Assembly (NCBI GenBank): GCA_024743355.1
Contig: JANSWS010000019.1
Coordinates: forward strand, 1 to 41,894
Direction: 5' to 3'
DNA from: a bacterium
Lineage (GTDB): Bacteria; Planctomycetota; Planctomycetia; Pirellulales; Pirellulaceae
DNA length: 41,894 nucleotides
The notes beneath the pieces are model-generated. The model searched no databases, was not told where the DNA came from, and was given only the letters and a program-made list of their open reading frames with translations. This document shows positions 10,922-13,775 of the stretch, one piece after another; the first letter of the stretch is position 1, and each line of letters starts with the position of its first letter. Both the position numbers and the translations under genes were made by a program.

Positions 10922-12037
10922 TCAAGCGTCCAAAGCCATGGGCATCACCACGTAGGCGTAGCCGTCGTCGGTAGTCATCAAAGCGGGTTGCGTTGCCGAG
11001 GCCACATCCATCCGGAATTTCGCATCGGGCTCTAGCACCTTCAGAAAGTCTCCTATGAAGCGGTAATCCAGCTTCATGCGGATCGACTCTCCCTCGTAAT
11101 CGATTGGCAACTCGACACGACTCTGTCCCAGATCCGCCGTGCTGGCTGTGAGCACCAGGGTGCCGTCGCCGAACTCCAAATCCAAGCCTCGCGTCTCCTG
11201 ATCTGCCACGATCGCTGCCTGGCGAATGACGTTGTAGAACGGCCCGACCACCATATCTATCACCACCGAATCGTCACGTGATGGTATGACCTGACGCCAG
11301 TTCGGGAACCGTCCTTCCACCAGTCGCGAATAAATTGTGCAGCGACTTGTCCGCAGCAAGACATCATTGTCCCGGGTGGCAATATGCACACTTTCTTCTC
11401 GATCGTCGATGCAACGCTCCATTAGCAGTAAGCTCTTGGTGGGAATGATCGTCGAATTCTCCGAGGATTCATGATCTCCGAAACTCTTGCCTTTACCCAT
11501 CATGCGAGCCAAGCGGCGTCCATCCGTGCCCACCGCCAACACATCATCGCCATGGAGCTCCAGCAGCACCCCGCCCAATGCAAAACGAGAGCTGTCCGGA
11601 TCCGTTGCAAAAGCGGTTCGCTTGACCATCTCTTTGAAGAGTCTGGCCGGAAGCTCGTGGTAGCTTTCCTCGCTGAATTCCACCACGTTGGGAAACTCAT
11701 CTGGGTTCGCACTGGGTAGTTTGAATTCGCTATGCAAGCCCTTGATCTGTATGCTTGCTCCATCGACTTCGAAATCCAGTCGATCGTCGCTGCTTTCCCT
11801 CAAAATCATGCCTACCCTGCCAACATGCAGTAGAGCCTTGCCAGGTGTCTGCACGTCGACGCCTTCTACATCGATGCGAATACCGGTTTCCATATCGGTA
11901 GCCATCAATGTCACTCGGTCACCGGAGGCGTCTATTTTGACATTCTGTAGCACCTCTTTGGGACTGCGCTGCTGAGCCACGCTGGCTGCCAACTGGAAGG
12001 CAGCGGCTAATTGTTCGCGGTTGCACGATACTCGCAT
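10922..12037 (-). CDS. dnaN: DNA polymerase III beta subunit (sliding clamp)
   Basis: A 371-residue beta clamp, the standard length. It forms the dimeric ring that tethers DNA polymerase III and other repair and replication proteins to DNA. The N-terminus begins MRVSCNREQLAAAF and reads into the first clamp domain (KEVLQNVKIDA, ATDMETGIRI). The middle domain has FALGGVLLELHGDDVLAVGTDGRRLA, typical of bacterial DnaN. The C-terminus YAYVVMPMALDA corresponds to the conserved YVVMPMRL end that contacts clamp-binding peptides; here Arg is replaced by Ala. It lies downstream of dnaA in the same direction, separated by the candidate origin, an arrangement common near bacterial oriC. Confidence 0.97.
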   Translation of the reverse strand: MRVSCNREQLAAAFQLAASVAQQRSPKEVLQNVKIDASGDRVTLMATDMETGIRIDVEGVDVQTPGKALLHVGRVGMILRESSDDRLDFEVDGASIQIKGLHSEFKLPSANPDEFPNVVEFSEESYHELPARLFKEMVKRTAFATDPDSSRFALGGVLLELHGDDVLAVGTDGRRLARMMGKGKSFGDHESSENSTIIPTKSLLLMERCIDDREESVHIATRDNDVLLRTSRCTIYSRLVEGRFPNWRQVIPSRDDSVVIDMVVGPFYNVIRQAAIVADQETRGLDLEFGDGTLVLTASTADLGQSRVELPIDYEGESIRMKLDYRFIGDFLKVLEPDAKFRMDVASATQPALMTTDDGYAYVVMPMALDA

Positions 12038-12155
12038 CTATTTTTCTCCTGCTTTGGTGATTGGCTGTTTTACCCCTAGACCAGCCATTACAGAAGAACA
12101 CGAAGGCAAAAATTCAGTCGGAAGCGTCTCTCTTACAACCCTCTATCTTAAAAAA

Positions 12156-12167
12156 TAGTAGTAGTAG
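12156..12167 (+). promoter_or_regulatory. Candidate DnaA-trio element (TAG x4)
   Basis: Four perfect tandem TAG triplets (CTA on the minus strand) are followed towards lower coordinates by six consecutive A bases, and on the other side by a GC cluster and a DnaA-box-like site. DnaA-trios are ssDNA-binding repeats of 3'-(G/A)AT-5' that direct DnaA filament growth during origin unwinding. Confidence 0.6.
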
Positions 12168-12187
12168 GAAGGGGACCGCCCGAGCTG

Positions 12188-12196
12188 TTTTCCACA
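12188..12196 (+). promoter_or_regulatory. DnaA-box-like site TTTTCCACA
   Basis: The 9-mer ttttccaca differs from TTATCCACA at one position. It is separated from the TAG triplets by a 20-base, mostly GC stretch. Confidence 0.6.
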
Positions 12197-12397
12197 TCGG
12201 CGAAGAAATAGCTAAGTCTCATGCTCAGCGAGCTTTGCGCGAGAAAATCAACCACCAACTGACAGCGGATAAATCGTTGGTTGGGAGTTTTCTGCGCGTC
12301 GAGAAGTGTTGACGCCCTGGCTGCTAGCCTACACGTCGATAAGCGGAGACAGCCGGCTGCCAAAGGCATGCACTCCGAGTGACAGTCGACGAACATC

Positions 12398-12428: not shown

Positions 12429-13514
12429 TCAGAAATTGAGTAACTCAGCCTGAAGCTCGGAAAGAGATTTCGAAAGCTCAGGATCATTTTCGATTTTCGA
12501 GGCCGTCGAGCGGCAGGCATGCAAAACGGTCGAATGATCTCGTCCACCAAAGAACTGACCAATTTCCTGCAAACTAGAGGAAGTCAAACTTCGCGCTAGC
12601 AACATGGCCAGCCCGCGAGCACGAACAATCTGGGATTGACGCGTAGAACCACGCAAGTCGGAGAGCTTAACGCGTAACTTCTTGGCAACCAGCCTGGCTA
12701 TATGCGCTACGCTTAGCTGGGATCCAAGCACGGACTGTTGGATCAATTGCGAGAGCAGCAACCCATCAAAACTACCATTGGCCGTACGGTTTTGGTGGGA
12801 AAGGGTCACTACCTGCATCAACTGACTGGCGGTCAAAAGGGTAGGGCATTGGTCGCAAACTTGGGCAATCGAGTGGGAATTTAATTCGGGATCGATCAGC
12901 GCAACCAAATCCTGGATGATCGAGCTCCGAGCCTCGCTCCCCGGCCGGCTCAAGCAAGTCGAGTAGCCAGCAGACAGGCGGCTGGATAACGATTCTTCGA
13001 TTCCATCCAAACTAGCCGGCAGCTTACCGCTGGTCACAATCAGCGGAACGCGTCCAGCCTGGAGGCAGTCGATGGTGTGCAGCAATTCGATCTGGGCGGC
13101 AGGTTTGGTGATGATGGGCTCCAAGTCATCAATGACCAAGAGCTTGGCTTGGCGATAGCGATTGCGAAACGAACTGACGTCATCGATCTCAATGGCCGCC
13201 AAATATTCCTCGGAGAATGAACGGCCAGTGGCAAAACACAAGGGTCTTTGACGCGATCTACGAGCCCAACAAACGGCCAGCGTAATTGCCAGGGCGGTCT
13301 TTCCGGTAGCTTTGTCACCGTATAGAACCACCGGTGACAGCAGAGCCAATTCATCGAGAGACCGGTCGGCAAAAAGATGACCGACAGCAGAGTTTTCATT
13401 GCCATAGACAAAATCCGGGATCATCCACCCTTGCGCTCCAAAATCCGGAAATTGCCTTCGGATGGAGGCGGGCTTTTCAAGCGGAATTCGTACAACGGTT
13501 GAGGTGGTAGTCAC
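12429..13514 (-). CDS. dnaA: Short chromosomal replication initiator DnaA
   Basis: A 361-residue DnaA with domains III and IV only. The AAA+ domain begins at DFVYGNENSAV (about residue 34), matching the family FVVGxSNxxA. Walker A is GDKATGKT (66-73). Walker B is LLVIDDLE (125-132). Sensor 1 is in VTSGKLPASLDGIEE. The box VII arginine is in SLSSRLSAG. Domain IV carries ARGLAMLLARSLTSSSLQEI and GGRDHSTVLHAC, the DnaA signature that reads the DnaA box. Typical DnaA has about 450 residues with an N-terminal domain I for self-assembly and helicase loading plus a linker; both appear absent, since only about 33 residues precede the AAA+ domain. The adjacent origin-like spacer and dnaN support a real initiator role rather than a Hda-like paralogue, which would lack domain IV. 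Confidence 0.93.
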   Translation of the reverse strand: MTTTSTVVRIPLEKPASIRRQFPDFGAQGWMIPDFVYGNENSAVGHLFADRSLDELALLSPVVLYGDKATGKTALAITLAVCWARRSRQRPLCFATGRSFSEEYLAAIEIDDVSSFRNRYRQAKLLVIDDLEPIITKPAAQIELLHTIDCLQAGRVPLIVTSGKLPASLDGIEESLSSRLSAGYSTCLSRPGSEARSSIIQDLVALIDPELNSHSIAQVCDQCPTLLTASQLMQVVTLSHQNRTANGSFDGLLLSQLIQQSVLGSQLSVAHIARLVAKKLRVKLSDLRGSTRQSQIVRARGLAMLLARSLTSSSLQEIGQFFGGRDHSTVLHACRSTASKIENDPELSKSLSELQAELLNF

Positions 13515-13617: not shown

Positions 13618-13730
13618 GAATGTTTCGCAGGCTCAACCTGCCGTGATTGTGATCGCCGCAAAGAAGTCGCTTGGCCTGTCCGCCGAGGCAGGGCCTCGAA
13701 GACGAGGCGTTCCAAGGCAGAGCCCTGGAA

Positions 13731-13775
13731 CGAGGGTAACGCAAACGAGGGTAACGCAAACGAGGGTAACGCAAG
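13731..13775. repeat. 15-bp tandem repeat, 3 copies
   Basis: The unit cgagggtaacgcaaa occurs three times without gaps, the last base of the third copy being g. It directly follows the palindrome ttccaaggc/gccctggaa. Confidence 0.9.

Follow-up and report, generated by a model that had tools for sequence, protein, structure and literature searches.

A probable Bacillus-type origin unwinding element between dnaA and dnaN in a Pirellulaceae bacterium with two DnaA paralogues

Is the short spacer between dnaA and dnaN in this planctomycete the place where its chromosome would be opened for replication, and if so, which DnaA protein would open it? We use "the window" for the whole stretch of DNA analysed, a contig of 41,894 nt. 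An initial annotation had read in this spacer, on the minus strand, a DnaA-box-like site, a GC-rich block of about 20 bases, four CTA triplets and an AT-rich sequence, and had taken them for the basal unwinding system (BUS) of Bacillus subtilis, extended to a phylum with little-studied origins. We compared the spacer with those of relatives in the family and beyond, and the DnaA proteins with B. subtilis DnaA.

Layout, conservation and location of the element

Re-reading of the minus strand confirmed both the coordinates and the order of the parts. The DnaA-box-like site TGTGGAAAA (12196-12188) is followed by the 20 bases CAGCTCGGGCGGTCCCCTTC (12187-12168), by four CTA triplets (12167-12156) and, directly after these, by TTTTTTAA (12155-12148). 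The GC-rich block is present, but it is shorter than first described: its last three bases (TTC, 12170-12168) take the first trio position when the window is aligned to its relatives, so that the spacer proper measures 17 nt (Table 1). On the trio strand the window reads TAG four times, at least three trios with a middle A, and the tract TTTTTTAAGATAGA follows the trios.

Table 1. Features in and around the dnaA-dnaN spacer of the window (distances are counted from trio 0)
Feature	Position	Strand	Basis or remark
dnaN, beta clamp	10922..12037	-	other flank of the element from short dnaA
AT-rich tract TTTTTTAAGATAGA, presumed unwinding element	12142..12155	-	A/T enrichment in relatives
DnaA-trio run, TTC + four CTA	12156..12170	-	trio strand (3'-GAT-5') is the window plus strand, 5'-TAGTAGTAGTAGGAA-3'
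GC-rich spacer of 17 nt, CAGCTCGGGCGGTCCCC	12171..12187	-	box exactly 17 nt from trio 0 in 10/14 genus spacers
Proximal DnaA-box-like site TGTGGAAAA	12188..12196	-	opposite in orientation to the family consensus TTATCGACA, which would sit in register 12194-12186
Conserved TTA, -45 to -43	12213..12215	-	genus: T 12/14, T 12/14, A 9/14
Conserved AA, -66/-65	12235..12236	-	genus: A 13/14 and 12/14
Distal, stronger DnaA box TTATCCGCT, end of array	12264..12272	-	family consensus TTTTCCAC
Three weak DnaA sites in 11-bp steps	12305-12297, 12294-12286, 12283-12275	-	upstream motif search and AC phasing
Further DnaA-box-like site TTATCGACG	12334..12342	-	by inspection only
Short DnaA, 361 aa, domains III and IV only	12429..13514	-	PF00308 and PF08299, no DnaA_N

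The spacers of relatives were aligned as the initial annotation had proposed. The family set comprised 110 loci, 94 of them with dnaN next downstream; the 16 without dnaN beside DnaA were dropped. Ten further spacers from the genus of the window brought the set to 104, and dereplication (7 near-duplicates dropped) left 97. Three loci stayed outside the set, L115 as a locus from outside the family, and L120 and L114, whose retrieved sequence includes no dnaN. An expectation-maximisation (EM) motif search from random starts in the 97 spacers converged on c.c.TTacTACTACTACt.t.ttaaaaaa, a trio-plus-AT motif, with a log-likelihood gain of 1066 (60 starts) compared to 143 (40 starts) in spacers shuffled in two-base blocks. 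A reversed-sequence control was uninformative, the motif being merely mirrored. Confident sites were found in 93 of the 97 spacers, the remaining four having no confident element, and A/T was enriched from about +15 to +31 from trio 0 in the 79 spacers from outside the genus.

A matrix built only from these 79 non-genus sites had its best match on the same element in all 14 genus spacers, and none of 200 dinucleotide shuffles reached its score in any of them. In the window's spacer the best match fell exactly at the element (21.1, compared to a maximum of 7.4 in 200 dinucleotide shuffles). The full matrix, trained with the window's own site included, scored 23.8 at 12170 as the best position of the whole window, with 6.1 for the next non-overlapping match and a background maximum of 12.4 over 798,840 positions of the congener G119. 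A chance repeat or coding artefact was ruled out by the EM gain, the leave-genus-out matrix and the background scan.

Spacing is conserved together with order. In 10 of the 14 genus spacers a site within two mismatches of TGTGGAAAA stands at a distance of exactly 17 nt from the first trio, and in one at 18 nt; the other 3 have no box of that quality at that place. The pattern TGTGGAWAA-N17-TTMCTA occurs a single time in the 8.3-Mb assembly, at 12165-12196; across 15 genus genomes it gave one match each in 7 and none in 8, and the backwards control gave 0. Outside the family, 6 of 16 short-dnaA/dnaN spacers had no match above their own shuffles. The order of box, GC spacer, trios and AT tract is conserved in the relatives. 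The trios are indeed regular, as had been remarked, but not unusually so: in the family it is common to find 3-5 near-perfect triplets in a row.

Because the window's own assembly consists of 823 contigs, skew was sampled in the one-contig congener G119 (8.44 Mb), whose record itself starts at dnaA (short dnaA at base 13). Of the 10 samples between 0.4 and 4.0 Mb, 9 had positive GC skew; of the 10 between 4.4 and 8.0 Mb, 9 had negative GC skew. T-A skew behaved likewise (9/10 and 10/10 samples). The switch lies at the dnaA-dnaN end of the record, at a resolution of 0.4 Mb, in agreement with the skew check named in the initial annotation, and the cumulative GC skew of the window has its minimum at 11-12 kb. 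Since the motif is conserved beyond chance and the skew switches there, we believe the element is most probably the unwinding module of oriC, of the Bacillus BUS type. The larger region 12142-12342 is very probably the core of the chromosomal origin on the BUS plan, with binding, capture and unwinding assigned by homology.

That the triplets are instead a promoter or leader feature of dnaN, or chance, appears very improbable. They do lie upstream of dnaN, and they stay with it in 4 of 10 loci where it is apart from dnaA, but across the 93 confident sites they lie anywhere between 39 and 353 nt from dnaN, while the box-trio spacing is nearly fixed; the skew switch and the lack of a comparable match in the 798,840 background positions also speak against this reading. 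The 4 of 10 come from family genomes with dnaN separated from short dnaA. In all, 13 genomes were searched for dnaN, including three that are not counted here (see below); G098 had no dnaN match, and two more separated genomes, G074 and G106, were outside the search. The trio matrix rose above the background maximum in those four dnaN loci (three from one genus, one from another) and found no match above background in the other six. At the short dnaA loci of such genomes it did so in 0 of 11, with a best score of 9.4 (L015). Loci L255, L257 and L258 of G027, G051 and G096 (scores under 9, 9.9 and 13.0) are not counted, since it was by their long DnaA (described below) that these genomes had been retrieved; in G051 and G027 the short dnaA adjoins dnaN.

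Other features were seen nearby. The sequence GTAAAACA lies between the trios and dnaN (12066-12073, minus strand); by eye, 11 of 14 genus spacers carry it or GTACAACA in the same stretch, as do several other genera, and it is possibly the dnaN promoter or another DnaA half-site. Just upstream of dnaA is a perfect 15-bp tandem repeat, AACGAGGGTAACGCA, in 3.1 copies (13729-13774). A deoxyhypusine-synthase-family protein (PF01916; 9811-10773, minus strand) adjoins dnaN, and about 4 kb from the origin the plus strand encodes ScpB (PF04079; 15932-17086) with a long Asp/Glu-rich C-terminal tail.

DnaA-box-like sites upstream of the trios

When the EM search was applied to the DNA upstream of the proximal box (91 spacers, motif width 54), it returned ac........gAC.......caAC..gTTtTCCAC, in which AC recurs at exact 11-bp steps, with a gain of 1183 compared to 131 for shuffled sequences. 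Counted over 93 upstream regions (91 longer than 40 nt), AC dinucleotide pairs at lag 11 numbered 258 where 79 were expected (z = 23), and lag 22 gave z = 14; no other lag from 4 to 30 had z above 2.3. Counted from trio 0, 43 of the 91 spacers have the start of the array between -142 and -137 and 41 have it between -131 and -125, two positions about one helical turn apart. We interpret the array as probable DnaA half-boxes phased at 11 bp. Whole-turn changes in the spacing between boxes are reported to be tolerated in E. coli (PMC4285127). Between the array and the proximal box, the conserved AA and TTA spots (12213-12236, minus strand) are two helical turns apart; they are conserved in the genus and weakly so in the family, and are maybe a site for another origin protein.

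The proximal box of the window differs in orientation from that of most relatives. In the 79 non-genus spacers the commonest proximal site was TTATCGACA, oriented towards the trios. Of these spacers, 54 have a forward box with no more than two mismatches, 35 of them at 15 nt, while the reverse orientation reached this quality in 12 and shuffled flanks in 3. The genus thus carries its box the other way round from the family consensus. Boxes seen by eye in further families of the class are forward (TTTTCCACA in L216, AATCCACA in L200). In B. subtilis, boxes point as TTATCCACA to the trios. The B. subtilis element is inactive once box #6 or #6/7 is reversed (PMC6669920). The claim that the planctomycete uses the same element as Bacillus is therefore inexact, as the genus box is opposite to the family's usual one and reversal inactivates the B. 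subtilis element. What stood of that claim is the order of box, GC block, trios and AT tract, the place between dnaA and dnaN, the conservation and the skew.

Trio bases and two DnaA paralogues

Although every CTA triplet of the window has A in the middle on the trio strand, its relatives do not always keep to this base. In trios 1-4 of the 93 sites the middle base was A 281, C 71, G 12 and T 8 times (372 in total), so that G or T together account for 20. Mapped on a tree of 92 short DnaAs, the presence of C on the trio strand requires at least 28 changes, that of G at least 9 and that of T at least 8, although A-to-G would be the transition. A trio-strand C was never seen at the first trio base (0/368). 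In B. subtilis the first two trio bases are flipped into a pocket in which G is held by Arg202/Glu228 and A by Asn187/Glu183; in vitro the rate is kept when C replaces A and falls with G or T, and C also gives more frequent initiation than G or T in vivo (PMC10721633). Since the natural A/C middle bases fit these substitution data, the trios of the family appear to follow an A-or-C amino-base rule in nature. We found no report of a natural middle C in trios in the main texts of the open-access literature. The middle bases of 93 natural origins provide an evolutionary test of the nucleobase-capture model, which so far rests on B. subtilis mutants.

On this model, initiation at the window's origin would begin with DnaA gathering on the 11-bp array of weak boxes that ends in the stronger box (12305-12264) and on the proximal box (12196-12188). 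An ATP-DnaA filament would then extend onto the plus strand of the trios (5'-TAG-3' four times plus 5'-GAA-3') and flip out two bases per trio, G and an amino-bearing A or C. The TTTTTTAA tract would open, and the helicase would be loaded there. What the sequence shows directly is which elements are present, how they are spaced, that they are conserved and where the skew switches; DnaA binding, base capture, unwinding and helicase loading are assigned by homology.

The same assembly encodes two DnaAs that could carry out these steps. The short DnaA beside the element has the AAA+ domain III and the helix-turn-helix domain IV (PF00308, PF08299) and aligns to residues 141-445 of 8btg. It has no DnaA_N match that would indicate domain I, its AAA+ match starting at residue 34, and it scores 198 bits against the NCBIfam DnaA equivalog (cut-off 344). 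A second, long DnaA of 533 aa is encoded on another contig (C172); in G119 the corresponding gene lies at 4.86 of 8.44 Mb. Domains III and IV were found in the long DnaA of C172, in which Asp413 is replaced by Arg, and Pfam DnaA_N scored 14.2 bits (cut-off 24.6; E 0.036). DnaA_N exceeded its cut-off in 4 of 8 long N-termini tested (L114, L169, L225, L228), only one of them from the family. A profile iterated from the window organism's own long N-terminus recognised domain I in 69 of 72 long proteins.

At least two DnaA matches are the rule in these genomes. All 119 sampled family genomes matched the short DnaA at E <= 0.001, some only through the long paralogue; at least two matches, fragments included, were found in 107 of them, and a long-type match (E <= 1e-39) in 57 of 60. 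Across genomes of the class, 82 of 98 had at least two DnaA matches and 16 had one. Our search of the open-access literature found nothing relevant on two DnaAs in planctomycetes. A candidate third DnaA, a PF00308 match on contig C666, was rejected as IstB-like by inspection of its sequence and a transposase-like neighbour.

Among the named contigs scanned, relatives of the short DnaA were limited to two distant loci, in a Planctomycetota MAG (27% identity) and in a contig titled Burkholderiales (29%). The latter, L115 (JANXUB010000165.1), is a MAG contig with dnaN downstream and is possibly mis-binned. In locus L193 (G192:C19) a single contig carries two DnaA-family genes separated by about 8-9 kb; the second adjoins dnaN and has a trio-like match of 11.9 (shuffle maximum 6.5). 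This is perhaps a paralogue pair before separation.

We aligned 117 short and 61 long family proteins to B. subtilis DnaA (sequence from PDB 8btg; B. subtilis numbering), having removed from the short set L065, L106 and L112 (frames of 487-613 aa). L113 (a duplicate) and L140 (a 142-aa fragment) were dropped as well. Asp413, beside the box-recognition helix, is present in 117/117 short and 0/61 long proteins. We take B. subtilis residue 413 to be E. coli 433, where Asp presumably contacts the box; our literature search found no text on Asp433. The E. coli helix 434-451 reads TnCACA (PMC5742627). The residues for base capture are better kept in the long form. Glu183 is present in 60/61 long proteins and is not among the six commonest residues in short ones. 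Residue 187 is Asn 29, Thr 17, Ser 11, Ile 3 and Cys 1 in the long set, and Arg in 93/117 of the short set, where Asn occurs in none. Arg202, Lys222 and Glu228 are each present in 61/61 long proteins, compared to 99/117, 76/117 and 91/117 short ones. The Arg finger (Arg264; 61/61 long, 115/117 short) and the Walker Lys (Lys157; 61/61 and 112/117) are kept in both forms.

Our boldest reading is a possible split initiator, in which the short DnaA would read the boxes and form a platform, while the long DnaA would extend over the trios, capture bases and recruit the helicase via domain I. The invariance of Asp413 in short proteins and its absence from long ones, the capture residues of the long form (with Asn, Thr or Ser at 187 in 57/61), the ATPase residues kept in both, domain I confined to the long form and the presence of at least two DnaA matches in most family genomes all suggest such a division. 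It is less clean than this in some respects: the window's own short DnaA retains Arg202, Lys222 and Glu228, the long copy of the same organism stays below the DnaA_N cut-off, which only half of the tested N-termini exceed, and in class-level proteins Asp413 is present in 21/30 short forms and in 2/10 single long ones (Asn187 in 10/10). On account of the latter counts, clean complementarity is a feature of the family.

A middle C also goes with the long protein's residue 187. Counting only A and C on the trio strand, C occupied 42 of 104 trio-middle positions where residue 187 of the long DnaA is Asn (26 genomes) and 3 of 95 where it is Ser or Thr (25 genomes), as would be expected if the long form read the trios. 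However, on a tree of 52 genomes residue 187 shows two changes between Asn and other residues and there is a single origin of C-rich trios (2 or more), which amounts to one deep split with 2 independent pairs. With so few pairs the correlation is inseparable from shared ancestry; having failed this phylogenetic control, it was rejected as proof that the long DnaA reads trios and is kept as a hint.

Two single-protein readings must be weighed against the split initiator. It is rather unlikely, though a serious alternative, that the short DnaA alone initiates at oriC and the long one is a regulator or transcription factor. The short gene sits at the origin, and its protein keeps Lys157 and Arg264 almost throughout as well as an invariant Asp413; yet it would have to initiate without domain I, the helicase hub, and without Glu183/Asn187, and a pure regulator has no obvious need of the capture residues that the long form keeps. 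The converse, that the long DnaA alone initiates while the short one sits on the boxes as a brake or organiser, we consider improbable. The 16 class genomes with a single DnaA match point in this direction, the protein being of the long type in the 10 fetched. Inspection by eye of 14 dnaN loci from genomes in which only a long DnaA was matched revealed, in 7, trio-like triplets preceded at 13-14 nt by TTATCCACA or TTATCAACA. Of these 7 loci, six are from one genus, and 6 score below the matrix background maximum. Against it are the loss of Asp413 in all 61 long family proteins and the position of the short form beside dnaN in 94 of 110 family loci.

A larger picture is possible, and we put it forward with reserve: a two-protein initiator would have arisen by duplication, with a short box reader at oriC and a long trio reader and helicase recruiter, working on a natural 3'-G[A/C]T-5' code that the B. 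subtilis base-capture model predicts. If confirmed, the complementary DnaA losses would put box recognition and strand opening in two proteins, so that the roles of individual protomers could be asked about.

Comparison with known systems

With the B. subtilis BUS (incC, DnaA-boxes #6/#7, DnaA-trios) the window shares the order of box, GC spacer, trios and AT tract and the 3'-GAT-5' trio strand. The B. subtilis element likewise sits between dnaA and dnaN. The window's element differs from that of B. subtilis in its single, inverted proximal box (genus), in the middle A or C (family), in the upstream 11-bp array and in the adjoining dnaA, whose product has neither domain I nor Asn187. The initial annotation did not include the second DnaA, the phasing of the upstream array or the A/C variation of the middle base. 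Its reading of order and place has held, and the conservation and skew that it named as checks agree with it; its claims of identity with the Bacillus element, of unusual trio regularity and of an extension to a further phylum were overstated or unsupported. Low-affinity DnaA sites in E. coli lie 2 bp apart, whereas here one array contains 3 weak sites and 1 box at exactly 11 bp. E. coli arrays of weak sites are likewise anchored by a strong box (PMC4285127). The trios of B. subtilis read CTACTATTACTTCTACTA (PMC10201434). In oriC2 of the Firmicute C. difficile an CACCTACTACTATTACTACTATGA trio lies beside the DUE downstream of dnaA, with a middle T on that strand throughout as printed (PMC7561715).

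The reach of the BUS beyond Firmicutes had already been published: a BUS is predicted in 1755 of 2070 species and was demonstrated in vitro for the DnaAs of H. pylori, S. elongatus and D. radiodurans (PMC8287927). Planctomycetes are absent from the main text of that paper, and, according to PMC8235120, one of its supplementary figures shows trios of over 20 phyla. For a group on which we found no dedicated origin paper in the open-access literature, the window provides a concrete, phased map of oriC. Like the predicted systems of PMC8287927, it has at least three trios beside a DnaA box in oriC, with 3'-GAT-5' the commonest, and its location is supported by skew in G119 (0.4-Mb resolution) and in the window. 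For a trio run to be counted in that search, the middle base had to be A and the first box located had to lie no more than 16 bp away; the window's box, with 1 mismatch, is 17 bp from TTC and 20 bp from the first CTA. Deviant trios were suspected in the same paper (PMC8287927), and the family's relatives often deviate from the middle-A rule, given 281 A and 71 C among 372 middle bases.
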